Under the pieces are notes generated by a model that was not told the origin of the DNA, did not search any database, and saw only the letters and a list, made by a program, of their open reading frames with translations. From positions 1 to 49,463 of the IMG/VR virus record IMGVR_UViG_3300026077_000007: a stretch of 49,463 nt of DNA. The stretch is one strand, 5' to 3'. Shown one piece after another: positions 2,293 to 34,264 of this stretch (the first letter of the stretch is position 1; every line of letters begins with the position of its first letter). A program made the translations under genes and the position numbers. This DNA is from a virus.

Positions 2293-3093
2293 TTATCCGA
2301 TCATATCCATTGGTGGAATTGCATACTTACTGAGAATTTCGCTTTCGATTTTCTCAATTTCTGCTAATGCGTCTGTATATAATTCTCTTCCATTAAGAGT
2401 AACACCACCAGGTAACTGGACGTTGTTATACTTAATTAGATTCTGACCCCACTGTTTCTTCATTAAAGAAGTAGCATACTTTTTAACAAATAAATCATTA
2501 TTCATTTCAGTAGCATCTGTAGGATCAATCATACGATGTGCTTCAATCAGTAGATACTTATCTGTTGCTAAGAAATCAGCATCCACATCAAGATATAAAC
2601 GATCACGACGCGCTGTAAATCTGAACTGCTGGAATGATCCATTGTTCAGAACCATATCTAGAGTTTCTAGATACTGCTTGGTCATAAAGTAATTGAGGAT
2701 ATCAATTGATCCAAATGCATAGAGATCATTCAAATATAATTGATATTCAACACCAAAGAGATTAGAGCGAATTGAGTTACTTACTAACCCAAAGACTTTA
2801 CTGATACCAGTTACATGTGCTGGAATTGGAATGTAGTTTGTTGCTTCATTCCAATCTGATCCATTAGTTGTAGTGGTTGTAGTAGCTTTGAATCTAGTAA
2901 TATCGTCTTCGGTTAATGAATGTGTTAGATAACATCTCTCCATTCCGTTGTAACAGTTCTCTTGGAAAAACTGATACGTATCATCAATAACGTTATTAAC
3001 TTGCTCATCGTCAATGTTTACTTCCAAGACAGGTTCGCCTAATTGCCTTTTACAATACGTTATGAGATCTGATCTAGAGTTTGGAGATGCCAT
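2293..3093 (-). CDS. gp13: Neck protein (gp13-like)
   Basis: A 266-aa neck protein, partner of gp14 in the head-to-tail connector. The N-terminal SRSDLITYCKRQLGEP motif and the middle DILNYFMTKQYLETLD and RRDRLYLDVD segments are characteristic of gp13 in T4-like cyanophages. I chose ATG at 3093 (MASPNSRSDL) because the longer reading requires a TTG start three codons upstream. The gene follows a strong hairpin terminator directly, and the AAGAAGGGAT arm of that hairpin is the only purine-rich sequence available as a ribosome binding site. A threonine run (six Thr) near residue 75 is unusual but in frame. gp14 follows after a one-base gap, so the pair is co-translated. Confidence 0.92.
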   Translation of the reverse strand: MASPNSRSDLITYCKRQLGEPVLEVNIDDEQVNNVIDDTYQFFQENCYNGMERCYLTHSLTEDDITRFKATTTTTTNGSDWNEATNYIPIPAHVTGISKVFGLVSNSIRSNLFGVEYQLYLNDLYAFGSIDILNYFMTKQYLETLDMVLNNGSFQQFRFTARRDRLYLDVDADFLATDKYLLIEAHRMIDPTDATEMNNDLFVKKYATSLMKKQWGQNLIKYNNVQLPGGVTLNGRELYTDALAEIEKIESEILSKYAIPPMDMIG

Positions 3094-3099
3094 TACACA

Positions 3100-3135
3100 C
3101 AAAAATCCCTTCTTACCTATTTAGGAAGAAGGGAT
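3100..3135 (-). terminator. Rho-independent terminator before gp13
   Basis: On the minus strand a perfect 10-bp stem (ATCCCTTCTT, 3135-3126, paired with AAGAAGGGAT, 3114-3105) is followed at once by a T run (3105-3101). The loop can extend the stem with CCTA/TAGG. It begins 6 nt after the stop codon of the upstream coiled-coil gene (TAG, 3144-3142). The loop itself reads CCTAAATA, a late-promoter-like octamer. Confidence 0.88.
3118..3125 (-). promoter_or_regulatory. Late-promoter-like octamer (CCTAAATA) inside the terminator loop
   Basis: The octamer CCTAAATA differs by one base from the T4-type late consensus NATAAATA and lies 25 nt upstream of the gp13 start. That spacing matches the better consensus sites elsewhere in the window. 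T4 late transcripts start about 6 nt past the octamer, which here is near 3112, inside the 3' arm of the hairpin. Confidence 0.5.
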
Positions 3136-3141
3136 CTAAGA

Positions 3142-3348
3142 CTATATTGCTGGTGTTTCTGAGGGTGCTTCCTCTTCTGCTGGTGGGTTTAGTAGGTTAA
3201 GAGTTTCTAAACCACCAATAAGTTTTAACCTATATTCTTCTGCTTTTGCTAGATTTTCTTTTAAATCTAAAATCTGCTTCTCTGCATTAGCAAGTTGCTT
3301 ATCAAAATTCTCTCTGAGTTGTTCAGGAGTTTGAGGAGTTTGAGTCAT
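3142..3348 (-). CDS. Small coiled-coil protein, function unknown
   Basis: A 68-aa protein beginning MTQTPQTPEQLRENFDKQ. Residues about 10-50 form a predicted helix with heptad-like leucine and isoleucine spacing and many Lys/Glu pairs. The C-terminal 20 residues are acidic and proline-rich (PPAEEEAPSETPAI). I chose ATG at 3348; a GTG nine bases upstream would add three residues. A late-promoter-like ACTAAATA lies 28 nt upstream at 3376-3383, and the gene is followed at once by a terminator, so it closes the fibre-gene transcription unit. Similar short coiled-coil proteins are common beside cyanophage fibre genes, which suggests, without proof, a chaperone or minor virion role. Confidence 0.72.
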   Translation of the reverse strand: MTQTPQTPEQLRENFDKQLANAEKQILDLKENLAKAEEYRLKLIGGLETLNLLNPPAEEEAPSETPAI

Positions 3349-3374: not shown

Positions 3375-3587
3375 TTATTTAGTAGTCTTTCTGGGTTTCC
3401 AGATTCCCCATCTACCATCGGGGCATTTAGCATCTTGAAATTGAACTTTTCCTTTTATAAAACATCCACAAAGTTTACACTGTTGTAGTGATTTGCGCAA
3501 ATGTTCACATTCAAGACATGTATCAAACCTTTCCTTACTGACCCTTCTGGGTACCATAAGGAAAGGAAGATGCTCATCAAGTGTCAT
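3375..3587 (-). CDS. Small cysteine-rich, zinc-ribbon-like protein
   Basis: A 70-aa protein (MTLDEHLPFLMVPRRVSK start). It has six cysteines in the pattern C-x2-C, about twelve residues, C-x2-C-x-C, then a further C before PDGRWG. This arrangement is typical of a small zinc-binding fold, and close relatives are common in T4-like cyanophages (I recall a DUF6171-like family, but could not confirm it). The ATG overlaps the stop of the glycine-rich adhesin gene by ATGA (3584-3587), so the two are translationally coupled. The basic C-terminal tail (WKPRKTTK) could bind nucleic acid. A role in fibre assembly or host takeover is equally possible. Confidence 0.75.
   Translation of the reverse strand: MTLDEHLPFLMVPRRVSKERFDTCLECEHLRKSLQQCKLCGCFIKGKVQFQDAKCPDGRWGIWKPRKTTK
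3376..3383 (-). promoter_or_regulatory. Late-promoter-like octamer (ACTAAATA)
   Basis: ACTAAATA on the coding strand overlaps the last codons of the cysteine-rich gene and lies 28 nt upstream of the coiled-coil gene start at 3348. It shares the TAAATA core and spacing with the consensus late promoters in this window but has C where the consensus has A. Confidence 0.4.
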
Positions 3588-5636: not shown

Positions 5637-5644
5637 TATTTATA
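5637..5644 (-). promoter_or_regulatory. T4-type late promoter (TATAAATA)
   Basis: An exact match to the T4 late consensus TATAAATA. It overlaps the TAA stop codon of the 4317-codon fibre gene and lies 26 nt upstream of the 71-aa gene start. Confidence 0.75.
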
Positions 5645-8600
5645 AGATAGTCCACTTGGCATTATTACCAAAGACAATATCAACACCAGCAGCAACAAAA
5701 ATAGGACCATTAGAGTAACTATTACTATTTGCTTCAAGATCAACATCATATAGAATAGTATCATTGAATGCTTTGATAATACCCTGTGAGTCTTGATATT
5801 GTCTGACTCCACCAATGTAAGTAGTACCAACAACGTTGAAGTCTCCCTCAACATCTAATGCATATTGAGGATCCTTATCGGTACTGAAACCAATACCAAC
5901 TTTAGATGCTCTGTAAATGTCAGTACCATTAGGAGATTCTGTCCATCTAGAAGTAACGAATTCAGAGTTGTTTTGATATAGTTGACCATTAATGTTAATG
6001 TCACCACCAACGTTAAGAATATATTCTCTTAATTGGTTATTTGCTTCAGGGTCATTACCTTGGAAAGTGGTAGTGTTAATACCAACTCTAGCATTTGATC
6101 CGTCAAAACTACCAGCAAAAATAGTTCCACCACCAAAGGTGTTACCACCAGCAGCAGTAGAGTATTCAATAGAAAATACACCATCAGCAACATAGTTGTT
6201 ACCAACTCTGAAGTTTCTAAATCCAGTTGCACCTAGTAGTGAAAGACCAGCACCAGCATTATCACTGTTATCACCAGCAACAAAGCTTGACTTAGTTTGA
6301 ATATCATTATCTACAATCAGTCCTTTATTAGTACCACTGTTTTCAATTAATACACCACCATCACCTTGGATGATTAATTTATTACTACTGTTATTACGGA
6401 AGATAAAGTCTCTATCTCTTGCTCTACCATTAAAGATCCAGTGTGCTCCTTCTCCTGGTTTGACGGCAGCACCGCCATTACCAGATGTTAGGAACATCAT
6501 TGCATGTTCTGTATCATCAAAGTATTCATCCTTACCAGCATCAAAGTACATCTTATGACTTTGATTATCATGTCCTTGTAGACGTATGGCACCAACTGTT
6601 CCACCTAAGATATCTAATGTTAGACCAGCAACTAGAGTTGTTCCTACATTAACACCAATGTTGTTCTGTGATACATCAACAAAGAGTACACCGCTATCAA
6701 CATTGAAATCTCCAGTAACATCTAGAGTAGCAAGGAAGTCAACGTCACCAGAGACTGATAGACCTTGTGTAGAAGCAGAACCAGTACCGATGGTTAGACC
6801 ACCAGTCATTGTGTCTCCTTCCTTAAGAACGTTAAGTGAAGCAGCACCAATTAGTTCAGCACCACCAGCAGTGTCAAGAGTAATAGTTCCAGCAGAGAAT
6901 CCACCATTACCATCACGCTTAACTGCAGTATCTGCAACATTTGTTGACTGGAACTCAATATTACCTGCGTTCCATATAGTAGATCCATTCTGAGTAAATG
7001 CATCTGCATTTTCTACCTGAACGTTAAGTGAACCAGAACCATCAGTTGAAGTACCACCAGAAGCAACTATTGCAGAATTATAATTTGCAGTTAGTGCAGA
7101 AGAACTAAAGTAAATACCTGGTGAGGAAGCAGTACCATCCTTTCTACCAAGACTTAATTTTGCAGTAGATCCATCACTCTCAAGAGTAGCAACGTTAATT
7201 GTGTTACCAATATCAATTGTAAAGTCTTGGAATTCTTTTCTATCAGATGCTGTACCAAGTGTTTCAGCACCAATAAAGTTACCAGTTGTTAATCTACCAA
7301 TAATAATTGTGTAGTCATTTGCATTATCCGAATCATTATTAATAACAATGTTATCAATTTCAATAACACCAGTACCCTGACCGTTAGCATTATAAAGATT
7401 AATTGCGTTACCTGGAGTAAATGGTGAAGCATTTAGAATTTGACCTGAGACATAGATCTTATAGCGACTATCACCATTATATGATCTAATTTCAACTTTA
7501 TCTTTAAATGCAGTCTGATCAATCCAGTCAGGTAGTCTATTATCAGATAAAGTTCCGTCATTAATATTAAGAGCATTCTGATACCAAGTACCTTCTCTGT
7601 TATCAAGTTTGTCAGCATCTAGGCCAGATCCAATACCATCGTTAAGTGAGTTCCACATTAACGCCCATGAACCAAATGTAGTTACACCAGTTCCAGAACC
7701 ACGCAACCACATGTTGTTATTATCTGTGAATGCAAGTTGTCTTACACCACCAAATGAAGCATCAAAACTTGTACCACCAGATCTGATGGTCATTACTAAG
7801 TTCTTAGCACCACCATCATCTAACTGGTTGGAACTGTTATTAACAGTGTTAGCAACAATACCACCAACGAAGTTATCAGGAGATGGGTTAGAAGTTGGGT
7901 TGTTAGTACCAGTTTCAAGTCTTAGTGAGTTACCAGCAGAACCAGAAACACTAATGTTATATGTACCAGCGAGTCGGTCAGTTGGTAGAGTACCAGCATT
8001 CTGGTTACCAGAGTTTAGATAGAACGCACCTTGAGCACCGTCTAGAAGGTCAGCATCAAGACCTGAATCAGCACCAACGTTTAGATCAACAGAACCATTA
8101 CCTGATACACCAATAGTAAACTGAGACTTCTTAAATCTCGCAACACCAATCGTACCATATAGGTCAGAAGAAATAGTAAGATCAGAAACTCTCTGAACGT
8201 CTACCGCAACGTTTGCATACTGTCTATTAACAGTGCTGACCTTAGCAAGTAAAACTAGACCAGATCCAGCACCAATTTCAGTTGGTGGTTGACTGATGTT
8301 AAAGTCAGCATCAAATCCACTACCACCATCAGTAACAGTTAGTTCTGAAACAGCACCACCAGCAATAACTAAGTTACACTTAAGTCCTGTACCAGTACCA
8401 CCAACTAAGTCAATATCGAAGTATTGACCGTTAGTAAATCCAGTACCACCGTTAGAAATAACAATGGTATCAACAAAGTTACCTTGAGTGTAAGTAGAAT
8501 CAAAGATGACTGGTGATTCACCACGTTCAAATTCGATAACAGTACCAGCACTAATTGATGAAGTACATGGGTTGTTAACTGAGATAGTTGTAGAACCACC

Positions 8601-11600
8601 AGTTGTTAGAACACCAACAATGTTAGTATTAGGTTGAATACCAACAATGTTGTTTAGAATCTCATGACCAACTAGTGCTTCAGGTAGAGTGGAGAATACC
8701 ATCTCACTAGAACCACTGTTAAAGTTCTGAGTTAGTTTTGCAAAGTATCTCTTCTCAGCACCCTTGATAGACTGAACCGCTAGTGCAAAGTTTTGGTCAC
8801 CACGTAAGAATGTGAATGAGTTTGCAGCACCACCAGATGCCAATCTATCAGTTTCAACAACACCAGATACAATGTCAGATGCAGAGATCTGATTGGAAGA
8901 TAGTGATACCCAGTTATTAGCATCACTAGCAGATGTGTTAACTGCTCTATCAATATCAATAGTAACAGAAGGAACATCACTAGAATCAAATTGATCAGTA
9001 TCTTCTAGTTTAATTCTGTTTACAATATCACCATATAATCTAGATTCTATTAGGGCAACTGCTGATGCTTGAGTACCAGTACCTTGTGGAGCAGCAATTG
9101 TTACAGTAGGAGGAACAGTGTATCCTTTACCACCTTTAAATCCGTTGAATTTAACTATGTCAATTGCAACAACCTCACCATTTGCTATAACTGCTTCTGC
9201 TTTCGCTTCAACTGAACCAGACTGAGGAGTACCACCACTAACAGTAATAGTTGGAGCAGTTGCGTAACCAGAACCACCATCATTAATATTGATTCTGAAT
9301 ACAACACCTTGTCTGTATTCAGTAGCCTGCATACGACCACCAGATACACTACCAGTAAAGATGTCACCCAGAGTAAACTGTAGTGAAGTATCAACACTGA
9401 ATCCTAAGAATTGACTATCTAAATCATTGTTAAGAATAAATGATGTTGATGTGTCTTGTTCAATAGCAATGTCACCAGCAAGTGCTCCTTCAATTGCAAG
9501 TCTTTCTGTTTGGTTAGCAATAGTGAAGACTTCAAATGGTCTAAGTGCTGGAATCTGATCAACAGATATCTTACCTGAATCTGTTAATTCAACCAATGCT
9601 CTAGGAACAGCGTTAGTAGAGTATGGTTTATTGATGTAAGGTCCTAAGTTATTAGTGATGTAGTCTCTAACTGCCTTCTGTGTAGGTAGTTTAGAGTCAC
9701 TAGAGTTAGCACCACCCAATGTGTTAGATGCGTCGAAACCAGTAACAACAGTGTCTCCACCTTTTAGTTTCAAGAATTCAACTTCAGAGATGGTAACAGT
9801 ACCAGTAAAGGTAATAGCACCAGTTCTGTTCTCGATCTGTGCGAATGTACCAACCTTGAAGTCTCCAAGTTCGTCAGTACCTGAGCAGTAAACTCGACCA
9901 TAGTTCTGAGATACTTGCTCGTTAGCAACAACCTTAGTACCACCGTTCTCAGGTAGTGCTAGGTAGTTAGTACCAGATCCAGCAAATTCCCAAGTGTGTG
10001 ATGAGGAGTTAACGATAGATGGTCTGTGTAGATTAATTGTTTCTCCAATCAATGATCCAGGAGAGATCTGCTGACCATTAGCAATGTTAGTTACATCAAC
10101 TGGATCTCCAGTACCATTATCAATAGTTAATTGTGCAGAGAAAGGAGGACCAACGGTAACAGCACCAACAGTATCAACAAAGAATTCGATATCTGGGTTG
10201 GTATTATAGTGACCATCAATCTTAATAACGTAATGTTCTAGTGGTTCTCTACCAAGGTTACCAACAGTAAAGATGGTTCTACCAGTAGGAGTAGAAGAAA
10301 CGTTTGTAATTGTACCAATGTCAAAGATATATGGTTCATCTCTGTATCCAGTAGCACGTAAAGCGTAAATACCAAAGTTAGTAGCAGAGTTAGTGATAGA
10401 TGCATAACCACCAGTCTCAGCAACAACACCATCAGCACAGAAGATAACGAACACAGACACCAACTGAACATAACCATCATTGCTAATCTTGTAACCTGTA
10501 CCACCAAAGGACACAATCGTGAATGCAGATGCAACCATCGATTTACCCTGATTCGGGAAGGTAGCAGTACCATCAAGTTCTAAGCCAGGGAATGGGCAGT
10601 TAGGTTGCTTAACTTTAGATCCATCAACTAGAGCACCACCACCTCCTAAGAAGGAGATAACAGAAGAGTTCTGTGTATAAGGAGATGCCTCAATGATAGG
10701 ATAATCATCGTAACTACCACGAATTGCAAGTCTCTGGTTATTAGCATCATAGATGGTGTTATCTGGATATGTAATAAGAGCAGAGGTATCAAATAGAGTT
10801 CCATATGTCTTAGTAAGAGATCCAGGTTCAATTGATGAAGTAGAATCAGGATTAGCAGCATACTCTAGAATACCATCTACAATCTCCATCTCAGTAGAGA
10901 TGCTAGATTCTACGTTTGCACATAGAGGAGCAGATCCTGGTGCATATACACTAATTGATTCATTCTGAGTATATCTAAAGGAATGACCTGCTTGTGGAAG
11001 ATGCTTAACTGCATTAGTAACTGCACTAACAAATGTATGTGGAGCACGAGGTTCAAACTTAATAGCGTTAGTTGATGCACCCTTAAAGAGGTGATCGACA
11101 CCACCTATTCCAGCAGCATTTACATTAATTCTAATCCATCCAGTCTGTCTTGAAATTGCATTTGCTGCAGCACTTACAAATGTATGGTTACCAGTGTAAG
11201 AAGAAGTTCCAACATTAATCTTAAATGTGTTTGTAGTTACAGCAGAAATAGGAATCCAACGACCAGAAACATAATCAAATCCTGCACGAGGATATGGTTT
11301 ACCAGCACTTGCCTTACCAACATTAACTGTAAGAGTATTAGAAGTATATGCTACAACTTCTAATGCTGTATTGTATGCAGGGTCAGTTGCTCTAGGATAG
11401 GTATGGACTGTACCATTATCATCCCTATCACAAGTAAATGCAAGAGAATCAGGAGCAAGTCTAATACTTACACCTATCTTTCTTATACTATTAGCAAGAC
11501 CACTTACAAATGTATGTGTATCTGTGTTAGTAGAAGGTGTAGAATCTAATACTTGGATATCAATGGTATTAGAAGTTTTTGCAAGAACTTCGATCTCCTT

Positions 11601-14600
11601 ACCACTTACAGGGTCAGAAGCACGTGGATAAGCAGTTCCTGTAGAACTAACACCAACATTAACAGTGACTGTATTAGTGCTTACACTGTCAATAGTAATT
11701 TGTTTTCCTGCAAATGGGTCAGTCTCACGTGGATATGCATAAGTTGTACCAAAGTTATCTGCACTACACTTGAATTTTAAAGCACCATTTTTAATTTGTA
11801 TTGTATCAGAAGTTGTTAATTCATGAGCACTACCAGCACGATTAGACTTCTGAAGAGTCATCTGTAAAACACCTGTTGTAGCAGTATAATCAGCATCAGT
11901 AACAGTATATACATTACCGTTTTGATCAATAACTTTATCTACACCATCATCAGGTTCAGATTCACCACCAACGTAATTATGTGTACCAGCACCATATCCA
12001 CAACTGAATGTTACAGCACCATCTTCTAACTTAATCTTATCACCAACTTCAAGACCATGAGCAACAGTTGTTGTTATACTCATAATACCCGTTGTTGGGT
12101 TGTATGTTGTACCAGAAGTAGGTGTAAAAGTGGTGCCTCCAGTTAGACCATGTGAACCTGAAGTAGTTAATACCAATTCACCTGTCTCAGGATTATAATC
12201 AGCATCAGCAACATCATGAGTTACTGCAGGTGATGAACCTACGTTTACAGTAAATGTATTTTGTGTAACTGCAGATATACTGAGGGTTGCACCAGAAGCA
12301 GGATCATCAGGTCTAGGATAAGTCTTCTGAGTTGCATTACCATCCATTGCACAAGTTAATGTTAGTGCATTGTCAGCAATAAAGATTGTATTAGATGTAG
12401 ATAATCCATGACTATTAGAGGTGATAACCATATCACCTGAGGATGCAGTATATTGTACGTTAGTAACTGCATTAGGTAAGTTACCAACATTAGATGTAAC
12501 TCCGTTTGCTACAGCAGATACAAATGAGTGTGCGTAGTTACCACCTGATATTACTGCATTGCTTGCAGTACCACCAACATAAGTATGAACACCAGCACCA
12601 CCTAAAACACAAGAATACTGTAGAGAGTTATCTGCTATCTTAATATAATCACCATTACTAAATCCGTGATTAGCAACTGTAAATGTTATCTCACCAGTTA
12701 CTGCATCATATGGTGCATTGGTTGGTGTATGTGTACTCTTCTCAACTTCAGTAATAGCAATAGATTTACTAGCCCAAGGATCAGTACCAGGACGAGGATA
12801 GGTATGATCAGTAGCATAATTGTCTTGATCACAAGCAAAGGTTAATGAATTATTCTCTAGAACAATATTACGTCCTACACCTAAACCATGCTGACCGATA
12901 TAGAAATCTAAGTCACCAGTAGTTGCTTTGTAATATGCCCATGTTGGTGTAAAGTATTTGTTAGGAGGAGCAATACCAATATTAACACTAACTGTTGTCT
13001 CAGTAACAGATTGAACAGGGATTGATCTCTCACCATATGGATCGATTCCAGGACGTGGATACGTCTTCTGAGAATCATTGTTGTCCATTGTACAAGTGAA
13101 TGTCAATGAATTAGGTTCAATGATAATTCCTATGCCTGGAGTTAATCCATGATTTTCACCAAGAGTTAATGTTAAGATACCAGTTGAAGGTTCGTATGAT
13201 GAATCAGTTGGAGTCCACTGTTGATCAGGACCAGAAGCACCAACATTAACTGTGTAAGTATCTGTAGTTGTAGCAGTTATTTGTAATGCATTTCCATATG
13301 CACTTTGACCTGCTGCTGGTAAAAGATGCTCACTAAAATTACTATCCATGTCGCAACTGAATGCGAATGATTCTGGTGCAATACGGATTGTGTTAGATGT
13401 AGATAATCCATGACTAGGAACAGTAACTGTGAAGTCACCATTGGCAGGATTGTAAGTAGCAGTTGATGGTGTGTGAACTGCAATAGCAGCAGATCCAGTA
13501 GAATCAGTTAAAGTATTCCAATCTTCAAACTGAGGAATTGGAGTAGTTAAAATAACTGGGTTGTAAATGATAAGAGTTGCATTTGTTAGAGCACTAACGA
13601 ATGCGTGAGTAGAACCAGATGCAGTGCCTCCTATACCAACATTACATGTTACAGTAGTAACTCCAGCACTAGATGAAACAGCAGTAATAGGAAGACTCTT
13701 ACCGTATGATGGGTCACTTGGTCTTGGATATGCATGTTCTGTAGCATCACCATCTTGATCACAAGTAAATGTTACTGCACCCTCTTGGAATGCAATTCTG
13801 TCATTAGTTGTAATTGCTTGAGTTGGATCTGGGAAGTTAACAACAATATTTCCATTAGATGCATCATAAGTTGAGAATGATGGAGTAGTTTGAATGACGT
13901 CACCACCAGACCAGTTACGCATTGCTGCCTTAGCGTAAAATTCAGCTCTTTCAAAAGCATATCTAGTCTGTGCTAAGTATGCGTAATCAATACCAGTTAG
14001 TGCAGCACCTGTGTAATACAATTCTGAACTAGTAACAATACCAGAGTTACCACCAAGTGTAAGGTCTCTTATTAGACCACGAAGCATTAATCTAATATCT
14101 CTACGACACTTTCTTTGATGTACATCATCCAAATTCATTGTTGGATATGTACTTTCAGTATCTGCAAGTGCTTGCTCAGCAATAGCATCCTTGTTTCTTG
14201 AAATTAAGTAAGCAGCATCTAGATATGTGGCAGATGTGTTATTTGCCATAACATCTACCCATAGATACGCTAAACTATCAATAGCAGCTCTTACATCATC
14301 ACAAGCAACACCTTGTGCGTTTGGAGCAGTTGTGTTAATGATAGTATCATCAAAGTATCTTGGTAGAGATGAGTATACAGGAGTGTAGATAGGATCACTA
14401 GGAACACCGTTTTCGGTCCTCCAGTTTCTCATACAAGTGATTGCTAATTGTCTGGTATATTCAACTGCACGAACAGTTTGGATGATCTCATTCTCAACAA
14501 ATCCAATCTTAGCACCAACGATATATTTTTGAGCACCTTCAATAACATTATGGTTAGAACCAAATTCAAGGTCTCTAATTAGAGCATTAATGAAGTGAAC

Positions 14601-17600
14601 AATATCTTGACGACACTGATCATCACCTAAACGAATATTAAATGCTGGATATTTCTTTTCTCCTTTAGAACAAGATACAGTAATGTCATTAATCTCAACA
14701 ACTGAATCTTCTGCTAAATTTGGAATTGGAGCAGATGTTGTAATTGTTGCAGCACCTGTAACAGTATTATCGTAAGTAAAATTACTAATGACGTATTGTT
14801 GTCCACCAAAGTCTACAGTACCACCACTTACATAAGTGTGTATATCATCAGTAGGTCCAAGATAAATCTTAAAGTCAGAACCACCAGTGCTTAATGCATT
14901 AGTAGCTGCTCTTCTGAAGACGTGTGCAGATTGTGGTAAATGCTTAACAGCACCTGTCGAAGCACCAGCAAACGTATGTGGAGATTGTGGTAGATGCTTA
15001 ATAGCACTATTAGATGCTGTAATAAATGTATGGTTATACTGATTAGCAGGATTAGAATCAAAACCAACATTAACTGTGATAGTTCCAGTCTGTCTCTGTA
15101 ATGAATTAGCAACAGCACTTACAAATGTATGGTTACCAGTGTAAGAAGAAGTTCCAACATTAATTTCAAATGTATTTGCAGTCTTATTATTGATTTCAAG
15201 CCAACGACCACTTGATCTATCCATACCTGCTCTAGGATATGAATGGTTATCAGCATTACCATTTAGATCACAAGTATATGTAAGAGCATCGTCATCAAGT
15301 TTAACGAAATCTCCATTAGAGAATCCATGACCATTAACAGTAATTTCAATAACACCAGTTGCTGCATCATATACAGCATCAGTTGGAGTATGAGTTGTGT
15401 TTCCTACTGCAAGAATGTCAAGAGACTTATTATATGCAGGGTCAGTTGATCTAGGATAAGTATGCTGAGTAGAATCACCATCCTTATCACAAGTAAATGT
15501 TAATGAGTTATCATTAATAACAATATTCCTACCAACACCAAGACCATGCTGTCCAATGGTAAGAACCATTTCACCAGTTGCAGCATTGTAATTAGCACCA
15601 GTTGGAGTGAAATACTGATCAGCTTTAGGTGCTCCAATATTCAAGGAGATTGTAGTATCTGTAATTGCAGTTATAGGTACTGACCTTTCTGCATATGGAT
15701 CAATTCCAGGACGTGGATATGTCTTGACGGAAGAATTACCGTCCATGTTACAAGTGAACTGTAATGAATTTGGTGCAAACACCATACCTTCACCTACAGC
15801 AAGTCCATGACCTGCTCCAATAGTCAACGTCATGATACCTGTTGAAGGATCATAGACTGCATTAGATGGTGTAAATTCTTGGTTAGTCTTTGTCTTACCT
15901 ACGTAAACTGTAAAGGTATCCTGTGTTTTAGATAAGATAGGTAGAGACTTACCTTGAGAATAATGATGAATTTGTGGGTTAGAATGCTCTGTCCTGTAAC
16001 CATCCATGGCACAGACAAATACAATAGAATCGTCAGCGACTCTAACACCATCACCAAGATCTAATCCATGACTGTTGACTGTAAATGTAAGTAAACCTGA
16101 GAATGGATCATATTCAGCATTAGTTGGTGTAAACTGATTAGTTGGTGTACCACCAATATCATATACTGCATAATGCTTTTTACTAAATTCATCATTAATT
16201 CTACCAACAACTTCATCCGCAATAAAATCTCTATTGTTACGTAGTAACAAACATGCGTCTTGATATCTTCTGTCTACAGGAGTAGATAAAGGGAATGTGT
16301 TTGGAGAGTTAAGTAATGATAATGTAACAGACTTAGAGTAAGACTTTACAAGTGCATTTTGTCCAGGATCAAAGTTTGCATTTGTAACCCCTGGCATCTT
16401 CTTGGGGATAACAAAACGCCTTGCACGACCATCAGCATCCTCTAGAACCTTATAGATCCTCTGCTTACCATTAAGGGCTGATAAATCTGGTGCAGCTGTT
16501 GAAAGACCTTCAATAAGAATTTCTTGACCTGCTTTAAATTCATGGAAGTTATCTCTACCAACAAGGTCATTGGTGTAGAATATAATACCACCAATATCTT
16601 CTGCATTACCAAACTGTTCATTTTGGAAACCATCTTGAGTAATACTTGCATCTCCTTGTAGAGAGAAGTCAATTCTTTGAATAGGTAATTCTGAAATAAT
16701 ATCATTATCAACAGATACAACTTCACCTTCTGCTCTAATTGATTGAAGAGATGTAGTATCAATTCTTTCTTCAACAATATTTGCTGATGATATATCAATA
16801 TTTGCTGTTCTAGTGCTATCCCACTCAGGAGAATCTAGGATAGGTACAAATTCTACTATCCAGAAATTAGGAGAATCATCATCATTGATTTCCTTAACTT
16901 CATAGAAACCATTAGTGAAATCAACATCATCATTATCATCAATATAAACGTATGTACCTGGTGGAATATCTGTAGATGGATCAGAAGTTAGTTTTAACTT
17001 CATTTCACCAGCAGTCTCAGTTACAGTAAGTCCAAGATCTGTTCCTGCAGAACCTGTAACGATGTAATTAAAACTTTCACCCTCTAGGAAAGAACCACTG
17101 GTTAAGGTAACATCCAAACTACCAGTTAAGAACGATCCAACACCAATTGTTTGATCAAAATTAACACCAATAATTTGTGCTCTAGAACCAGTGTTAAGAC
17201 CAATAACCTCTTGACCAGTTTGTAGATTTGATAAACCAGTGTTCTCTTGGAATCTAACACGGAACTGATCAGGTCCAAAGATCTGGTGACCAACTGGGAA
17301 ACTAACACCAGCATCTCCGTTGGCGTCTTGATCGATGATAATTCTTTGCTTATCGTCAAAGACCATAGCAAAGTCCCAAGTAGAAACTGGATCTCCAATT
17401 GAGTCAACTTTATCTCTATAGGTAACACCAATCACATAGTTCTTATCACCAAACTTAACCATGTGTTTACCAGGGTTAGCTGGTCTGACAATTACCAAAC
17501 GTAAGTTGTCACCAACGATTGATGCATCAGGAGGTAATGAAATTGGGTTATCTTCTACATAATCACCACCAGAAACAATAATAGTTTCTTTGACGCCAGG

Positions 17601-18593
17601 AGTCATCCAGGCTAATTGTGCTGCTTTCTTAATAGTTCTAACTGGGTTTACAGCAGAACGACCATCATTTTCGTCACTACCAATCTGCTGTGAAACATAA
17701 ACACGACCACCAACGTCATTCGTTGCTAGGTTGAGGACGTATTCTGTAGTTGCAATTTTATTTGATCTATCACCTAGTAGAGGTGTTACTGAACGAGGGA
17801 AAATACCATCATCGCCTGTTTGATTATGGGCAAATGAATTCTCGTCTTGGACGCGGAAACCAATGTGTTGGAATTGAACTTCTCCGTTTAATTCTACACC
17901 ATCGATGTGTGTAGGAGCATTTTCCGCATCAGTCTTACCAGTATTAAGTGCCTGATAGAGATTAGCACCAAAATATCTGTATGAATCCTTTTGGATAATA
18001 ACATTTCCACTCCAAGGAATACCAGTATTATTCTGGAAATTCTTTAAATATGGTGCGCGGAAATTAGCATCAGGAGTAATAAAGTTATCAATATCAAGGT
18101 TTAGAATTCTAGCAGTATCAGAAATGATAGATGTAGATGTTCTAATAGCACCGTTGATGTCAAGTTCGTAATCAACAGTATCAAGGAAAGCTTCTCCTGT
18201 TGCACCTACACCAGTTTCGCTTGTTATTGATACAGAGGGAGCGGTAGTATATCCAGAACCAGGATTATTAATAGCAATATTAACAACTTCACCATTGAAT
18301 ATAAAGGCAGAGGCAAGGGCTTGTATTCCACCTGCTACGTTAGGTGGTCCAATAATAACACTAGGCGGTGTCTGAAAACCAGCGCCTGGCGTTAGAATTT
18401 GAATGTTGTTAACTCTTTGACCAGTTCGGTTAATACCGACACGTGGTAATCCAGTGGTAGCATCAAGTTGAGTACGTAAAATCTCACGTTCAGATGATCC
18501 TGTACCACCTCTAATGGTAAGTTCGTTATCACCGATGAGTTTGGGATCACCTCCCCTGATAAACTCTTTGTCGGAATTGATATTAAAACTCAT
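5640..18593 (-). CDS. Giant repeat-rich tail fibre protein (4317 aa)
   Basis: The largest gene in the window. Residues 1-150 contain PGAGFQTPPSVIIGPP and GSGYTTAPSVSIT units. Around residues 290-370 there is a right-handed beta-helix-type domain (GSDENDGRSAVNPVRTIKKA, then a GGDY segment). From about 775 to 2590 a helical backbone unit (N-x-D-F-I-A-x-E, C-x-R/Q-D-I, D-L-x-x-G-x-N, MRNW, C-x-x-V) occurs twice. Each unit is interrupted by an array of roughly 60-90-residue repeats with F-T-C-x-x-D-G-N and YPR motifs. After residue 2600 come a second beta-rich region and then GLDADLLDG-type fibre repeats. The last 700 residues resemble multi-domain fibre shafts (SGSLNVQVENAD, GVDIVFGNNAKW end). 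I saw no S74 peptidase or other self-cleaving domain. It probably forms a long host-contact fibre or baseplate appendage. A GCTAAATA element at 18630-18637 may drive it. Confidence 0.85.
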   Translation of the reverse strand: MSFNINSDKEFIRGGDPKLIGDNELTIRGGTGSSEREILRTQLDATTGLPRVGINRTGQRVNNIQILTPGAGFQTPPSVIIGPPNVAGGIQALASAFIFNGEVVNIAINNPGSGYTTAPSVSITSETGVGATGEAFLDTVDYELDINGAIRTSTSIISDTARILNLDIDNFITPDANFRAPYLKNFQNNTGIPWSGNVIIQKDSYRYFGANLYQALNTGKTDAENAPTHIDGVELNGEVQFQHIGFRVQDENSFAHNQTGDDGIFPRSVTPLLGDRSNKIATTEYVLNLATNDVGGRVYVSQQIGSDENDGRSAVNPVRTIKKAAQLAWMTPGVKETIIVSGGDYVEDNPISLPPDASIVGDNLRLVIVRPANPGKHMVKFGDKNYVIGVTYRDKVDSIGDPVSTWDFAMVFDDKQRIIIDQDANGDAGVSFPVGHQIFGPDQFRVRFQENTGLSNLQTGQEVIGLNTGSRAQIIGVNFDQTIGVGSFLTGSLDVTLTSGSFLEGESFNYIVTGSAGTDLGLTVTETAGEMKLKLTSDPSTDIPPGTYVYIDDNDDVDFTNGFYEVKEINDDDSPNFWIVEFVPILDSPEWDSTRTANIDISSANIVEERIDTTSLQSIRAEGEVVSVDNDIISELPIQRIDFSLQGDASITQDGFQNEQFGNAEDIGGIIFYTNDLVGRDNFHEFKAGQEILIEGLSTAAPDLSALNGKQRIYKVLEDADGRARRFVIPKKMPGVTNANFDPGQNALVKSYSKSVTLSLLNSPNTFPLSTPVDRRYQDACLLLRNNRDFIADEVVGRINDEFSKKHYAVYDIGGTPTNQFTPTNAEYDPFSGLLTFTVNSHGLDLGDGVRVADDSIVFVCAMDGYRTEHSNPQIHHYSQGKSLPILSKTQDTFTVYVGKTKTNQEFTPSNAVYDPSTGIMTLTIGAGHGLAVGEGMVFAPNSLQFTCNMDGNSSVKTYPRPGIDPYAERSVPITAITDTTISLNIGAPKADQYFTPTGANYNAATGEMVLTIGQHGLGVGRNIVINDNSLTFTCDKDGDSTQHTYPRSTDPAYNKSLDILAVGNTTHTPTDAVYDAATGVIEITVNGHGFSNGDFVKLDDDALTYTCDLNGNADNHSYPRAGMDRSSGRWLEINNKTANTFEINVGTSSYTGNHTFVSAVANSLQRQTGTITVNVGFDSNPANQYNHTFITASNSAIKHLPQSPHTFAGASTGAVKHLPQSAHVFRRAATNALSTGGSDFKIYLGPTDDIHTYVSGGTVDFGGQQYVISNFTYDNTVTGAATITTSAPIPNLAEDSVVEINDITVSCSKGEKKYPAFNIRLGDDQCRQDIVHFINALIRDLEFGSNHNVIEGAQKYIVGAKIGFVENEIIQTVRAVEYTRQLAITCMRNWRTENGVPSDPIYTPVYSSLPRYFDDTIINTTAPNAQGVACDDVRAAIDSLAYLWVDVMANNTSATYLDAAYLISRNKDAIAEQALADTESTYPTMNLDDVHQRKCRRDIRLMLRGLIRDLTLGGNSGIVTSSELYYTGAALTGIDYAYLAQTRYAFERAEFYAKAAMRNWSGGDVIQTTPSFSTYDASNGNIVVNFPDPTQAITTNDRIAFQEGAVTFTCDQDGDATEHAYPRPSDPSYGKSLPITAVSSSAGVTTVTCNVGIGGTASGSTHAFVSALTNATLIIYNPVILTTPIPQFEDWNTLTDSTGSAAIAVHTPSTATYNPANGDFTVTVPSHGLSTSNTIRIAPESFAFSCDMDSNFSEHLLPAAGQSAYGNALQITATTTDTYTVNVGASGPDQQWTPTDSSYEPSTGILTLTLGENHGLTPGIGIIIEPNSLTFTCTMDNNDSQKTYPRPGIDPYGERSIPVQSVTETTVSVNIGIAPPNKYFTPTWAYYKATTGDLDFYIGQHGLGVGRNIVLENNSLTFACDQDNYATDHTYPRPGTDPWASKSIAITEVEKSTHTPTNAPYDAVTGEITFTVANHGFSNGDYIKIADNSLQYSCVLGGAGVHTYVGGTASNAVISGGNYAHSFVSAVANGVTSNVGNLPNAVTNVQYTASSGDMVITSNSHGLSTSNTIFIADNALTLTCAMDGNATQKTYPRPDDPASGATLSISAVTQNTFTVNVGSSPAVTHDVADADYNPETGELVLTTSGSHGLTGGTTFTPTSGTTYNPTTGIMSITTTVAHGLEVGDKIKLEDGAVTFSCGYGAGTHNYVGGESEPDDGVDKVIDQNGNVYTVTDADYTATTGVLQMTLQKSNRAGSAHELTTSDTIQIKNGALKFKCSADNFGTTYAYPRETDPFAGKQITIDSVSTNTVTVNVGVSSTGTAYPRASDPVSGKEIEVLAKTSNTIDIQVLDSTPSTNTDTHTFVSGLANSIRKIGVSIRLAPDSLAFTCDRDDNGTVHTYPRATDPAYNTALEVVAYTSNTLTVNVGKASAGKPYPRAGFDYVSGRWIPISAVTTNTFKINVGTSSYTGNHTFVSAAANAISRQTGWIRINVNAAGIGGVDHLFKGASTNAIKFEPRAPHTFVSAVTNAVKHLPQAGHSFRYTQNESISVYAPGSAPLCANVESSISTEMEIVDGILEYAANPDSTSSIEPGSLTKTYGTLFDTSALITYPDNTIYDANNQRLAIRGSYDDYPIIEASPYTQNSSVISFLGGGGALVDGSKVKQPNCPFPGLELDGTATFPNQGKSMVASAFTIVSFGGTGYKISNDGYVQLVSVFVIFCADGVVAETGGYASITNSATNFGIYALRATGYRDEPYIFDIGTITNVSSTPTGRTIFTVGNLGREPLEHYVIKIDGHYNTNPDIEFFVDTVGAVTVGPPFSAQLTIDNGTGDPVDVTNIANGQQISPGSLIGETINLHRPSIVNSSSHTWEFAGSGTNYLALPENGGTKVVANEQVSQNYGRVYCSGTDELGDFKVGTFAQIENRTGAITFTGTVTISEVEFLKLKGGDTVVTGFDASNTLGGANSSDSKLPTQKAVRDYITNNLGPYINKPYSTNAVPRALVELTDSGKISVDQIPALRPFEVFTIANQTERLAIEGALAGDIAIEQDTSTSFILNNDLDSQFLGFSVDTSLQFTLGDIFTGSVSGGRMQATEYRQGVVFRININDGGSGYATAPTITVSGGTPQSGSVEAKAEAVIANGEVVAIDIVKFNGFKGGKGYTVPPTVTIAAPQGTGTQASAVALIESRLYGDIVNRIKLEDTDQFDSSDVPSVTIDIDRAVNTSASDANNWVSLSSNQISASDIVSGVVETDRLASGGAANSFTFLRGDQNFALAVQSIKGAEKRYFAKLTQNFNSGSSEMVFSTLPEALVGHEILNNIVGIQPNTNIVGVLTTGGSTTISVNNPCTSSISAGTVIEFERGESPVIFDSTYTQGNFVDTIVISNGGTGFTNGQYFDIDLVGGTGTGLKCNLVIAGGAVSELTVTDGGSGFDADFNISQPPTEIGAGSGLVLLAKVSTVNRQYANVAVDVQRVSDLTISSDLYGTIGVARFKKSQFTIGVSGNGSVDLNVGADSGLDADLLDGAQGAFYLNSGNQNAGTLPTDRLAGTYNISVSGSAGNSLRLETGTNNPTSNPSPDNFVGGIVANTVNNSSNQLDDGGAKNLVMTIRSGGTSFDASFGGVRQLAFTDNNNMWLRGSGTGVTTFGSWALMWNSLNDGIGSGLDADKLDNREGTWYQNALNINDGTLSDNRLPDWIDQTAFKDKVEIRSYNGDSRYKIYVSGQILNASPFTPGNAINLYNANGQGTGVIEIDNIVINNDSDNANDYTIIIGRLTTGNFIGAETLGTASDRKEFQDFTIDIGNTINVATLESDGSTAKLSLGRKDGTASSPGIYFSSSALTANYNSAIVASGGTSTDGSGSLNVQVENADAFTQNGSTIWNAGNIEFQSTNVADTAVKRDGNGGFSAGTITLDTAGGAELIGAASLNVLKEGDTMTGGLTIGTGSASTQGLSVSGDVDFLATLDVTGDFNVDSGVLFVDVSQNNIGVNVGTTLVAGLTLDILGGTVGAIRLQGHDNQSHKMYFDAGKDEYFDDTEHAMMFLTSGNGGAAVKPGEGAHWIFNGRARDRDFIFRNNSSNKLIIQGDGGVLIENSGTNKGLIVDNDIQTKSSFVAGDNSDNAGAGLSLLGATGFRNFRVGNNYVADGVFSIEYSTAAGGNTFGGGTIFAGSFDGSNARVGINTTTFQGNDPEANNQLREYILNVGGDININGQLYQNNSEFVTSRWTESPNGTDIYRASKVGIGFSTDKDPQYALDVEGDFNVVGTTYIGGVRQYQDSQGIIKAFNDTILYDVDLEANSNSYSNGPIFVAAGVDIVFGNNAKWTIL
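10960..13900 (-). repeat. Repeat array 2 inside the giant fibre gene
   Basis: Boundaries are approximate; it covers protein residues about 1561-2545. Units share the order YDPxTGxMxLTI, HGL, a loop, then a short strand with F-T-C-x-x-D-G-N, H-x-YPR, DP, and a closing T-x-x-x-NVG. The array ends with a cassette of H-T-F-V-S-A and KHLPQ motifs, the same ending as array 1. It separates the MRNW segment from the C-A-N-V segment of the second helical unit. Confidence 0.75.
11168..11219 (-). repeat. 52-nt direct repeat, copy 1
   Basis: These 52 bases are identical to 15113-15164, read by eye. They encode INVGTSSYTGNHTFVSA at the end of repeat array 2. The identity at DNA level contrasts with the diverged sequence on both sides. 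Confidence 0.85.
14657..16170 (-). repeat. Repeat array 1 inside the giant fibre gene
   Basis: Boundaries are approximate; it covers residues about 809-1314. It holds four clear F-x-C-x-x-D/N-G-x units with a following YPR or degenerate motif, then the HTFVSA and KHLPQ end cassette. It interrupts a helical unit between K-K-H-Y808 and K-K-Y1315-P-A-F-N. Removing it would restore the spacing seen in the uninterrupted second unit (residues about 1455-1520). Confidence 0.75.
15113..15164 (-). repeat. 52-nt direct repeat, copy 2
   Basis: Identical to 11168-11219 over 52 bases. It encodes INVGTSSYTGNHTFVSA in the end cassette of repeat array 1, about 3.9 kb from the other copy in the same orientation. 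Confidence 0.85.
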
Positions 18594-24171: not shown

Positions 24172-27100
24172 TTAGAATGCAGCTACTGCACGAATGTCTT
24201 GAATCTTAGGTACATATGCTGGATCGTTACTTCTCATTACAATTTTAACAGCAAATGAGGAGAACTCAGGAAGACCAGACGCGGAATATGTAATGTCCTG
24301 ATAGGAGGATTGTTTCTCAACGACACTAGATATAGTGTTCTCAGGAGTAGCAATATCACTAACATCTGGGTGACCATTACCATTAAAGAATTCCCAATCA
24401 ATATCATCAAAGTTTTCTTGAGTAGATGCCTTTTTATACTTGAATAGAACTTTAACGTTTGCAAGATCCTTAGTATTCATTGTTAGATGAACATTAAGTG
24501 CAGTTGCTGGATTACTGATTGAAACTTCCTTACTTACATACTTAGCAATAGCAGAAGTATTCTTAGAAGTATTTTCTGGTACAAAATAGATACCATCTGT
24601 ATATTTAATACTTCCAATTTCCCAGAAACGAGCTTCATCATCTGGTTGATTTGGATACTTAATAAAATCACCAACTCTAAAGATATCACTCAATTGATCT
24701 GCAACAACAGAATTTCTATTATAAAACATTCCATCTTCAATTCTATCAGTGAAGGAATCATTGATAGGATGAACATCAGTTCTGAGAGTTAACTCTTGAG
24801 TCTTATTATTCCAGATAACTGCTTTACCTGTAATCTTATTAGTATATGTTTCAGTAATTGTTGATGGATTTCTTGCTTCAATAGTAGCAGAATCTGCAAT
24901 ATCAACAAACTCTTGAATTAGGTTTGTATCAACAACTGCTGCTGGAACCTCAACATCAACTCCATCCACAGTAATAGTTGTAACTACACCAGGTTGATTA
25001 CCAAGAGACATTCTTTCGCCTCTTATGAATAGTTGAGATGTTTTAACTCTTACATAAACAGTTAGTCCATCAACTTTTGCAATAGTACCAACTGCCTTAG
25101 AAGTATATCCTTCAACTGCTTGATCAGTTTGAATCTCTGTACCACCCATACCTGTTAATTGGAATTTATAAACAGGATAGAATTCAACAATTTGATCTCT
25201 TCTACCAAATCTATCTTCCATACCTTCTGCTTGTTCAACCCTGTTAGTTACAGTCTTGACGCTGGTAGTTCCTAAGTCTACAACTGGACTCAAATGAGAC
25301 ACAGTAGAACTGAGTGATAATTTATATACTAATGAATTATCAATACTATTCAAAGTTTCATTGATATTAGAAGCAATCATTTTTTGATTACTAAAGTAAT
25401 GAGGTTCATTTAAGAATGTTTTCTCAAACTCAGTTTGACTATATGATGGGAATGTAGTATCAGTAGAGTCTACTGATTGTACATTTGTAGTTTTAACTTC
25501 TGATAGTAGTTTTGTACTAGTGAATGTTAAGTATTGAACTTGTGGATAAAGAAGTTCAAACTTTCTATTATATGAAGCATATGCTAATTCACCACCACCA
25601 ATTCCAGAACCCGAAGATGGAATAGATGAAATAATATTATAAGAATCAATACCAGAATTTTTAACTTGGAATAGTGAACTATTCAAAATATCAGATGTTA
25701 CTCCACCAGTTTCCACTGCTTGTTTAAAGAACACATAAGATTTACCAGAAGTTTCAAATCCATGATCCTTATGCTTAACATTAACTATTGAATTGTTATT
25801 ACCAAATAACTTAGATGTTGCCTGAGTATTAGCACTAGCATTAGTCTCAAATGGATTCTTACTTAAAAGATCATAACCAAGTGGTTCATTTGTTAATTCT
25901 AGACTTGCAGTTCTAGAAATATCAAATTCAGCACGATATAAAGTAAACTTCAGATCTTCAAAGTTATCTTCTGTCCAGTTGTCAACATTTTGTGAACGGT
26001 ATACCGAACCTAATGATGGTTGAGTTGTAATGACCGTACTTGTCGAAATATCAATTTCACCAAGTTTTGATGCCCATAGTTCATAGTCAGTTGAATCAGT
26101 TTCAACAGCAAGTGCATATTCAGTATTATTCTGTAGATATACAGGATGATCAAACTCAAAGAATGATGGGATTGTAGAATTGGTAAGACCTTCTTGATCA
26201 GTTGCAACACCCATTCTAACAGCAGGTGCATCAATCTCAATTTCAGTTTCAAGAACAGCACCACCGCTACCATTACCAATTCCTTTGATAACTACAGAAG
26301 GTGGTTCTGTATATCCGAAACCAGGAAGTGAAACCTCAGCATTGTAGATCTTTCCTTCGGAAACTTCAATTCTAGTTGTAGCAACAGAACCGCCAGGTAA
26401 TTGTGGACTCTCAATAGTAACAATTGCATTTTCGTAGTTATTACCAACATTTGAAATCTTAATAGCAGAAACTTTACCACTATCTTTAGCAAGAGTTAAT
26501 CTTCCAGCAGTACCTTCAGTATTATTTGCTAAAGTAATTGATGGCACAATTAGATCTTCGTTCTGATTAAATGAACGACCATTATGATTACTAAGAACTA
26601 AAGTATATACTTGTTCATTAGTAAGAAGGAACTTACCAGAAGAAGATGCTACTAGATCAACACCATTTTTATCAATAATTTTATCAACAGGACCACTGGC
26701 AGCAGAAGTTGCTCCAGTTACCATTTCACCTTTGGTTACATATACGTTACCATTAGAATAGAACTTAAGGAATGTAGATGGAGAAAGAACTTTCTCTGTA
26801 CCAGGAATAATGTTTTTACCAGGTTTGTCAGATTCTACATTTGTAAGATATACTTTTACAGGAATACTGCTACTCTTCTTACTGACATAAAGATCAACAC
26901 CAGTAGTAAAGACACCACCATCAAAGTTCTCAATCTTAAATGTTTGAGCAAGTGGATTAGGTCTTACTGGGTTATCAGTATTACTATCAACAAACTGAAC
27001 ACCTTCATTTGCTTTGAAGAATGATGGTTTTGTTGAAATAATGCTGGAAGGATTCTCAGGAAGAACACCAGTTGCATAATACTTAACCTCAGCATAAGTA

Positions 27101-30100
27101 TCAACTGTTAATTTATCTGCATCAGTTGCACTAGATGTAAATCTGAAAGTCTTAATACCAGTAGAAACTCTAAGTTCTTCTGCAGTATCATCATAGTCTA
27201 CTGTGTTTACATCACCAGTCCAAGTAGCATTTTCTAATGGTGGCATACCAGCAGGTAGTACAATTGTACCACTAGCATTACCATCAGAGTCAGTAGTTAC
27301 TTTTCCATTAAACACAGAAGGTGAATTACCTGCAACTCCAGTAAAACGAATATCAGGATTTACCCAACGACTAATATCTCTACCTTCTAAGAATACAGAG
27401 ACAGTAGTATTTGGCTTCATCCTCTTAACAACAAACTTGATAGGTACACTTCTAGCAAAGAATTGTAATGCAGAAGAAACACTATTTCCTCTTACAGTTT
27501 TAGACTGAACACCCTTAGCAACATCATTATTTTGTGGACTAATATTAGAAGAACTATTAACTGCTGCAGCAACTACAGAAGTCTTTGCTGCTTCTCTATT
27601 CTCCTCACCAAGTGAATTAATAGATGTAAATGATGGAGAAGAACCAACCCAGTTTACAACAAATGAATTATGTAAAGAAGAGAAACTTTCTTTTACATCA
27701 ACTTTTGCTAAGAAGATCTTATAAAGATCAGTATTAGTATCAACAACTAGAGGTTCTGTATGTTGATCATACCATTGATCAATACTTGGAGAAATACTAG
27801 CATCACCAACATATTGCAAAACAACAAATGGATTTGGATTAAGTGTCTTTGATGCAGCAGTATTACCCAATAGATTTAGGTTGGTAAATGGTAGTGTAAC
27901 AACACCATTTGAATTTCTATATCCAGAAACAAATCTCTGATCATCTCTAACATTGATCTCTTTAAGGAATAATGAATCTTCTCTAGACTGTGGACGTAAT
28001 ACTGACTGTTGTGAATCAATAGAACATTGATAATCTAGTGATGCTAAGTTACCACTTCTATGTGCTTCAAAATTATCAACTAGGAATCCAGACTTAAATC
28101 TGTCTAGACCAATATCATCCTTAACTTGCATGTTAAGTGCTTGTTGTTCTAGGATACTAAGAGTAGTATAGTATTCTAATCTCTCAATACGTTTCTCCAA
28201 CTTACCAATGTCACGCATTGTGTAACGACGATTATCTACTGGAGTAATCCTTACATCTTTACTATCACTAGTGAATGCTGGAATATACGCATAGAATAAA
28301 GGAATTGCATCATCAACTGGATCTGGTTTAGATGGGTTGAGAGATGAATTACCTTCTTTAACAATAAACTTACCATTCTTATTAAGAAATACACCATCAA
28401 TTCTATCAAGATATTGAATCTGACTAAATGCGAGAGTATACTCTAAGTTAGAATCAGATGCAGGTGATGCAGCAACAATAGAACCAGCACCAGCAAAACT
28501 ACTGGTAGTAACAGATAATGAAGACTTATCTTGGAAACCAGCTATAGTTGTATTACTATCTACTTTTGGTCTAAAATCAATAACGTTCTTAAGGTTAACT
28601 CTTCCAAGTACAGATGAATCAAATGAACCAATTTCACTTTCTGAGACACCTGCTTCATGTAAGTAACTATCAATAGTACAGAAATCACCTTGAGAATGTT
28701 CAAAGTAATCAAATGCAATAACTAATTGACCAGATGTTTGAGTTGCACCTGGTTTAAGAACAAGTCTGGATACATCATATACAGTATCTCTTTGACCACT
28801 ATCAAATGTAAATCTATCAGTAACATCAGTACCTTCAATTAGATTACCTGCAGTATCAACATTAGGTGGTCTAGTTGCACTACCTTCATAAACATAGAGT
28901 AGTTTGTATGCATCAGAATATGATAGAACTTCTACAACGTCAGTATCATAGTTTGATCCTCTAAATGGGATAACTCTATCACCAGAAGAAGTAACAACGA
29001 TTCTTCTCCTCTCAATAGCAGTTTTAATTCTTGGTTTTGCATTCTCAACTTCTAAAGTTGCAGTCAACTTAAGTTTAGGGAATGTTCCATTAGTAGGAAT
29101 AGTACCAAAATAAGTTGATGGTAACTCCAAACTAATAGAACCAGCAGTTAATCCACTAGCAGTATCAGTAGAAGATGAAATAGTTACTGCATCTTTATCG
29201 ATGTATACGATATCACCTTTAACAATATTAGGTGCATCACCTGCATCTAAAACTGTAATGATATAATTCTCTTCACTAAATGCAGCAAATCTTTGTGTAC
29301 CAAATGATAGTTGTGCAGCAAAGGTAATAATACCACCAGAAGTTGCTGCTGTAGTTACAAAATCTCTACGGAAGAAATACTTGATACCAGTTTCTTCAGC
29401 ATTCTTAGAAATTCTCTTAATCTGACGACTACCTGTTGGGAACAATAATGTTCCTTGGTTTGAATTTTCAACTCTAGGACGTAATCTAGTAATACTGGTG
29501 TTTACAACATCACCAGGTAATACACTGTCCAAATAAACTCTAGTCTTAGATGTTCCTTCCTTTATTGTTGCATATTGAACAACAGAAGTTACAATTTGAT
29601 TATCTGAAGTAGCGAACTGAACAACATCTCCCTGTTGTAGTAATAGACTTGCATCAGCATTGAAACTTGTAGATTCAATAAAGTTATATCCTCTATTTCC
29701 AAAGAATGTGAAGTCAGTAACAGACTTAAGTTCTGCAAATTCTTGATCATTGGTGACAACATCAGCAGTGAAAACATTCTCCTTAGCAGAACCATACTCA
29801 GCACCAAGTGACTTAACATTCTGTGGTACATATGTTGTTACAGCATTTCTTACCATTACAGGTAAAATAACAGCAGCAGCTGAAGGACTTGAAGAACCAG
29901 TAGGAATTTTAACTGTAACTGCAGGTGGTTCTGCATATTCTGTTGCAGAAAGAGCACTCTTATTATTAACTAAGCATTGATAAAATGCTCCACTACCCAA
30001 CTTAAATAATTCAACAACTGAAGTATCATACTCAACACCATTAACAAGTAGGGTAGAATTATCTGGATACCCTAAACCACGATTCTGAACAATAAAATGA

Positions 30101-32341: not shown

Positions 32342-32349
32342 TATTTAGC
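32342..32349 (-). promoter_or_regulatory. Late-promoter-like octamer (GCTAAATA)
   Basis: GCTAAATA lies on the coding strand 35 nt upstream of the DUF4815 gene start and just downstream of a terminator. The same octamer precedes the 4317-aa fibre gene. Confidence 0.5.
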
Positions 32350-32355
32350 ACAGAT

Positions 32356-32383
32356 AAAAAAAATCCCCTGATTTCTCAGGGGA
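32356..32383 (-). terminator. Rho-independent terminator after gp8
   Basis: On the minus strand a perfect 8-bp stem (TCCCCTGA paired with TCAGGGGA) with a GAAA tetraloop is followed directly by eight T residues (32363-32356). It begins 24 nt after the gp8 stop. This is a textbook intrinsic terminator and should end the gp8 transcript. Confidence 0.93.
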
Positions 32384-32387
32384 CTTG

Positions 32388-32395
32388 TATTTATT
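32388..32395 (-). promoter_or_regulatory. T4-type late promoter match (AATAAATA) just before a terminator
   Basis: An exact NATAAATA match, 81 nt upstream of the DUF4815 gene. A transcript would start near the first stem base of the terminator at 32356-32383, so the site may be silent, may give a very short RNA, or may be chance in AT-rich DNA. Confidence 0.35.
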
Positions 32396-34249: not shown

Positions 34250-34257
34250 TATTTATA
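34250..34257 (-). promoter_or_regulatory. T4-type late promoter (TATAAATA)
   Basis: A perfect match to the T4 late consensus in the 51-nt gap before gp8. An additional ACTAAATA octamer (34262-34269) lies just upstream across the stop codon of the preceding gene. Confidence 0.8.
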
Positions 34258-34264
34258 CGTTTAT

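Follow-up and report, generated by a model that had tools for sequence, protein, structure and literature searches.

A late promoter nested within a terminator-like hairpin before gp13 in a T4-like cyanophage and its relatives

The locus and the hairpin before gp13

The stretch of DNA analysed here (the window) is a 49,463-base piece of a T4-like cyanophage; its late genes lie on the minus strand, where very long fibre-type genes are followed by small genes and then by gp13, gp14 and gp15. The very long reading frames on this strand (5640-18593, 4317 aa; 24172-32307, 2711 aa; 34265-45064, 3599 aa) probably encode fibre or other virion proteins. The neck proteins of ACG-2014e, ACG-2014h, S-CAM4 and S-RSM4 are 82-84% identical to the window gp13 (tblastn). 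The features around the gap before gp13 are as follows:

3376..3382, minus strand: CTAAATA late promoter of the upstream small gene, a likely source of RNA reaching the hairpin
3142..3348, minus strand: small gene upstream of the hairpin, phrog_580, function unknown; stop codon 6 nt before the hairpin
3126..3135, minus strand: 5' arm ATCCCTTCTT, expected solely in read-through RNA coming from upstream
3118..3125, minus strand: late-promoter octamer CCTAAATA at the hairpin tip, core TAAATA at 3118-3123; kept in 80/80 close relatives
3112 (plausibly 3110-3114), minus strand: predicted late transcription start, with the octamer at -13 to -6 by the T4 rule (PMC1524935)
3105..3114, minus strand: 3' arm AAGAAGGGAT, which would become the 5' leader of late-initiated RNA
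3101..3105, minus strand: U tract TTTTT at the stem end, an intrinsic-terminator signature in the sequence
2293..3093, minus strand: gp13, neck protein / head-tail adaptor Ad2 (ATG 3093-3091; phrog_211, E 9e-45; tblastn to annotated neck proteins)

Read on the minus strand, window positions 3135-3101 are ATCCCTTCTT CCTAAATAGG T AAGAAGGGAT TTTT, standing 12 nt before the gp13 start codon, and the gap before gp13 runs ATCCCTTCTT CCTAAATAGG T AAGAAGGGAT TTTTGTGTGTA ATG. The two arms (3126-3135 and 3105-3114) are complementary at 10/10 positions across a spacing of 11 nt, and the hairpin has an energy of -16.7 kcal/mol in isolation; when it is folded in context, 0/200 dinucleotide shuffles are as good on the plus strand (z -3.9) and 3/200 on the minus strand (z -2.4). 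The minimum-energy fold contains a CCU-AGG pairing, a 4-nt AAAU loop and one bulged U. The initial annotation had the octamer lying exactly in the loop: TAAATA is indeed at the hairpin tip, but CCTAAATA is not exactly the loop, the CCU-AGG pair leaving AAAU. As in intrinsic terminators, a stable G+C-containing stem is followed directly by a U tract, although a simple terminator scanner missed this hairpin (10-bp arms with an 11-nt gap, or the bulged U). Membership of an Rfam family was considered and rejected, since none of the Rfam 15 covariance models matched, the sole hit being a sub-threshold one to ROSE_3 on the other strand and elsewhere.

The late promoter

The late promoter of cyanophages has been described as NATAAATA (PMC2984593), and the late core in phage Aeh1 is CTAAATA (PMC1524935). 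Within the window TAAATA is rarer than expected (25 seen, 63 expected), and at ten genes it precedes the start codon by 20-54 nt, as expected of late promoters. The octamer before gp13 has this core, close before late genes and ending at -6 under the T4 rule, while its first two letters (CC) are unlike TATAAATA. Since that rule puts the late octamer at -13 to -6 relative to the start (PMC1524935), we infer a late start at about 3112, inside the 3' arm; because such a start would leave out the whole 5' arm, the late RNA would be incapable of forming the hairpin. Predicted openness over positions -20 to +3 is 0.19 in read-through RNA, as against about 0.43 in late RNA. Elsewhere in the window, two TAAATA cores lying 12 nt apart before a 601-aa gene (34250-34267, minus strand) are a possible double late promoter.

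Conservation in close relatives and cyanophages

Altogether 286 gp13 upstream regions were compared, of which 129 are unique, the loci having been collected by similarity to gp13 queries already carrying the element; for uncultured contigs the start codon assigned was whichever in-frame ATG or GTG lay nearest. The element is found near letter-for-letter in all 80 of the closest viral contigs (L028 having mismatches in the 5' arm). Over the 62 distinct sequences of close relatives, the mean major-base frequency is 0.982 for the element and leader and 0.742 for the end of the preceding gene, the figures for gp13 codon positions 1-3 being 0.918, 0.949 and 0.758; even the best 43-nt stretch of gp13 (at most 0.940) falls below the element.

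Where gp13 is only about 50% identical (S-PM2, Syn1, S-RIM32), the letters of the stem differ and TAAATA stays in the loop, which in most cyanophage relatives is exactly [A/C]TAAATA. Across the cyanophages TAAATA is kept inside a covarying stem in 62/84 unique regions; because the gp13 queries already carried the element, this and the other nested fractions reported here are no census of all T4-like phages, and because of shared ancestry the unique regions are not independent events. A U tract is present in 61 of the 62 nested cyanophage elements, as for instance behind those of S-PM2 (tccctatctgATAAATAcaggtaggga), Syn1 (tccctgcctgATAAATAcaggtaggga), the L113 type (tccctgcttcCTAAATAgaagtaggga) and the L152 type (tccctacatgCTAAATAcatgtaggga). 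In a set of 14 diverse elements, 95.2% of cells are paired and 17 cells have changed on both sides, compared with a shuffled mean of 5.9 (0/500); the covariation score is 0.338, compared with at most 0.116 for slid partners, and swapping the arms weakens the pairing (-19.3 kcal/mol for own arms, -12.7 for swapped; 0/2000 permutations).

The hairpin, U tract, TAAATA core and covariation together support the proposal, made in the initial annotation, that a terminator and a late promoter are nested before gp13. Relatives that keep the stem and lose TAAATA, which it had named as telling against this, were sought and none was found among the 286 regions (129 unique), the stems changing with compensation instead; the same nested layout, which it had suggested looking for in relatives, turned up before gp13 in cyanophages, in the L307-type group and in jumbo phages (see below).

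Not every cyanophage arrangement is of this form. In another nested layout before gp13, TATAAATACCCTTAGGAAACTAGGGGTATTTTTTTATG (L160-L172, L379, L380, L383), the promoter forms part of the 5' arm; S-BM3 and the L148 type have a tandem layout, a separate terminator and then a promoter; and in L134, L144 and L376 the promoter is present and the matching 5' arm has been lost. Despite that loss, L144 and L376 retain the 3' arm (AGGGATTTTG or AGGGACTTTG) along with the promoter, as though this arm did something by itself in the late leader. Neither terminator nor promoter occurs before gp13 in the P-SSM4/Syn10 group, and the claim is limited by absence of the element at this position in P-SSM4, Syn10, S-CAM3, ACG-2014f, Melnitz-3, phiN3 and PhaxI.

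Specificity of the nesting

The frequency of nesting was surveyed in 12 phage genomes together with the window, the other 14 A4T2 hexamers serving as controls. TAAATA lies in a hairpin closely followed by an ORF start in 13/1863 cases, against 35/38806 for the controls (OR 7.8, p 2e-7), and where a U tract is required as well the counts are 7/1863 and 6/38806 (OR 24, p 6e-7); for a hairpin alone, with neither start codon nor U tract required, there is slight enrichment (22/1863 against 261/38806). TAAATA is a short A+T-rich word, and one might suppose that an ordinary terminator merely happens to hold it in its loop, but the enrichment over 14 control words, the covariation and the recurrence at gp13 refute this explanation, to which we attach next to no credence.

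Among start-proximal TAAATA sites in the genomes surveyed, 13/652 (about 2%) are nested, on which ground the idea that late promoters are generally nested was rejected; set against so rare a genome background, the frequency of nesting before gp13 is striking. The tandem layout is commoner genome-wide, TAAATA following the stem 25 times and lying within it 7 times. The window itself provides an example at 32342-32393 (minus strand), where a strong terminator CCCCTGAGAAATCAGGGGATTTTTTTT precedes the 2711-aa gene, with one TAAATA at the terminator's 5' boundary and a CTAAATA immediately beyond it; this is a tandem terminator-promoter, in contrast to the nested element at gp13. With only some 50 nt of intergenic space available, the overlap of terminator and promoter might do no more than save space, each part working alone and the nesting having no regulatory meaning, and the existence of tandem layouts (in the window, S-BM3 and L148) and their greater number genome-wide fit such a reading; yet nesting outlasts the replacement of stem letters in several groups, and nested elements without a U tract, which are unlikely terminators, also occur. 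We regard this explanation as quite improbable.

Nested terminator-like late promoters are also found at other loci, namely in Syn1 (GU071105, 143045), S-BM3 (OQ319121, 68079) and S-CAM3 (KU686198, 165816 and 177850), two of these sites following mazG where a block of replication-type genes ends. In Syn9 (DQ149023, 113916) and Syn10 (HQ634191, 36129) a hairpin without a U tract, TTACCCTGATAAATAGATCAGGGTAA, surrounds the late promoter that precedes gp20, the portal gene.

Distant groups: the L307 type and jumbo phages

An uncultured T4-like group (L307 type), reached by pattern scan, carries a gp13-family protein (phrog_211, shown for L301) far from cyanophage gp13, and its nearest named relatives are jumbo phages. 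Here 41/45 unique upstream regions are nested by score and 45/45 by eye, the hairpin around TAAATA having a longer loop in the four that fail the score. The stems are highly varied, own arms pairing at -17.9 versus -9.9 kcal/mol for swapped ones. The U tract is mostly missing (present in 13/41 elements), and AGGA stands 7-9 nt before the ATG in 30/41, compared with about 1/62 cyanophage elements; in those 30 the 3' arm does hold an SD at normal spacing. In the jumbo phages GAP32, XaC1 and Munch and related contigs, the hairpin takes TAAATA into its 5' arm and loop, and its 3' arm has AGGGG or AGAGG about 8 nt before the gp13 ATG; the hairpin before gp13 of Agrobacterium phage Atu_ph07 is weak, which limits the claim.

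Termination or hiding of the ribosome binding site

It had been suggested that the 3' arm of the window hairpin contains the gp13 ribosome binding site, but this part of the earlier proposal fares poorly: the arm has no SD at normal spacing, the nearest SD-like AAGG ending 14-15 nt from the ATG. Most window genes lack an SD, and the cyanophage relatives have none at useful spacing before gp13. A mainly translational switch like that of T4 gene e or I-TevI, in which the gp13 site would be hidden in read-through RNA and termination would be minor or absent, fits the AGGA and sparse U tracts of the L307 type, the AGGGG of the jumbo phages, and also the retention of AGGGA in L144 and L376 after loss of the 5' arm. 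It is less easily reconciled with the position of AAGG in the window, the scarcity of SDs among window genes, and the U tract that nearly all cyanophage elements have and that a purely translational switch does not need, and for the window we consider it unlikely. Hiding of the ribosome binding site thus appears well supported in other phage groups only and weak in the window phage. Because of the U tract and the lack of an SD at normal spacing, termination is better supported as the output in cyanophages, and the window element is more likely to work at the level of transcription than of translation. On these sequence grounds we favour the reading, which we think probable, that it serves the fibre-side genes as an intrinsic terminator and that its tip houses the late promoter of gp13.

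On this terminator-promoter reading, RNA arriving from upstream would carry both arms, the hairpin would fold and the transcript would be released at the U tract; in any RNA that did read through, the region before the gp13 start would stay folded. Polymerase carrying a late sigma factor (gp55 type) would start at about 3112, inside the 3' arm, to give a late gp13 RNA with no 5' arm, and hence no hairpin and an open leader. In this way gp13 and the neck genes behind it would be expressed only from their own late start. The insulating logic put forward in the initial annotation is supported as well, although the need for insulation is not obvious, because both flanking gene sets are late-type in the window phage. 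The start point, actual termination and any effect on translation are what we infer from the observed hairpin, promoter core, U tract, covariation and conserved nesting.

Across the groups it is nesting that seems to be the common feature, with an output that, to judge from sequence, would be termination in the window clade, site hiding in the L307 type and possibly both in jumbo phages. A more general proposition is that a start-site-dependent gp13 switch is widely kept in T4-related phages, as one nested architecture with two interchangeable outputs (termination in cyanophages, ribosome-site hiding elsewhere, jumbo phages possibly having both); we see this as evenly balanced between right and wrong.

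Relation to known systems

Hairpins that enclose a late promoter and hide a ribosome binding site are known from the leaders of T4 gene e (lysozyme), soc, gene 49 and I-TevI/II/III, the nested mechanism being established for gene e and I-TevII (PMC3014915, PMC2988022), both of which were recovered by the same nesting scan. T4 itself lacks a TAAATA late promoter a short way upstream of gp13, and the open-licence literature searched yielded no description of gp13 being preceded by a late promoter that lies within a terminator or hairpin, which is weak evidence. The nested logic is thus known from T4, while its location at gp13, its depth and its terminator form appear to be undescribed. The significance of these elements is that a textbook T4 trick, so far described for only a few genes, is extended to an essential morphogenesis gene in cyanophages, uncultured T4-like phages and jumbo phages, in a form of nested hairpin that is probably a terminator. 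Such a hairpin would be a compact part that restricts a gene's expression to transcripts begun at its own promoter, and it yields precise, cheap predictions for existing RNA-seq data.

The window element resembles the T4 leaders in having the TAAATA core in or beside the loop, and, as in the T4-type nested switch, the promoter lies inside the hairpin so that late RNA (given the predicted start position) would lack the 5' arm while read-through RNA folds. It differs from them in that its gene is gp13, its U tract is conserved and it lacks an SD at normal spacing; the L307-type elements, with AGGA near the ATG and the U tract mostly missing, are closer to T4 e and I-TevI. With T4-type late promoters it shares the core sequence and the position before structural genes, as seen at ten window genes, though ordinary late promoters lie outside hairpins (only the 13/652 start-proximal sites noted above being nested). 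With intrinsic (rho-independent) terminators it shares a G+C-containing stem, a short loop, a U tract and a position directly after the upstream stop codon; unlike them, it has as its loop the promoter of the next gene.
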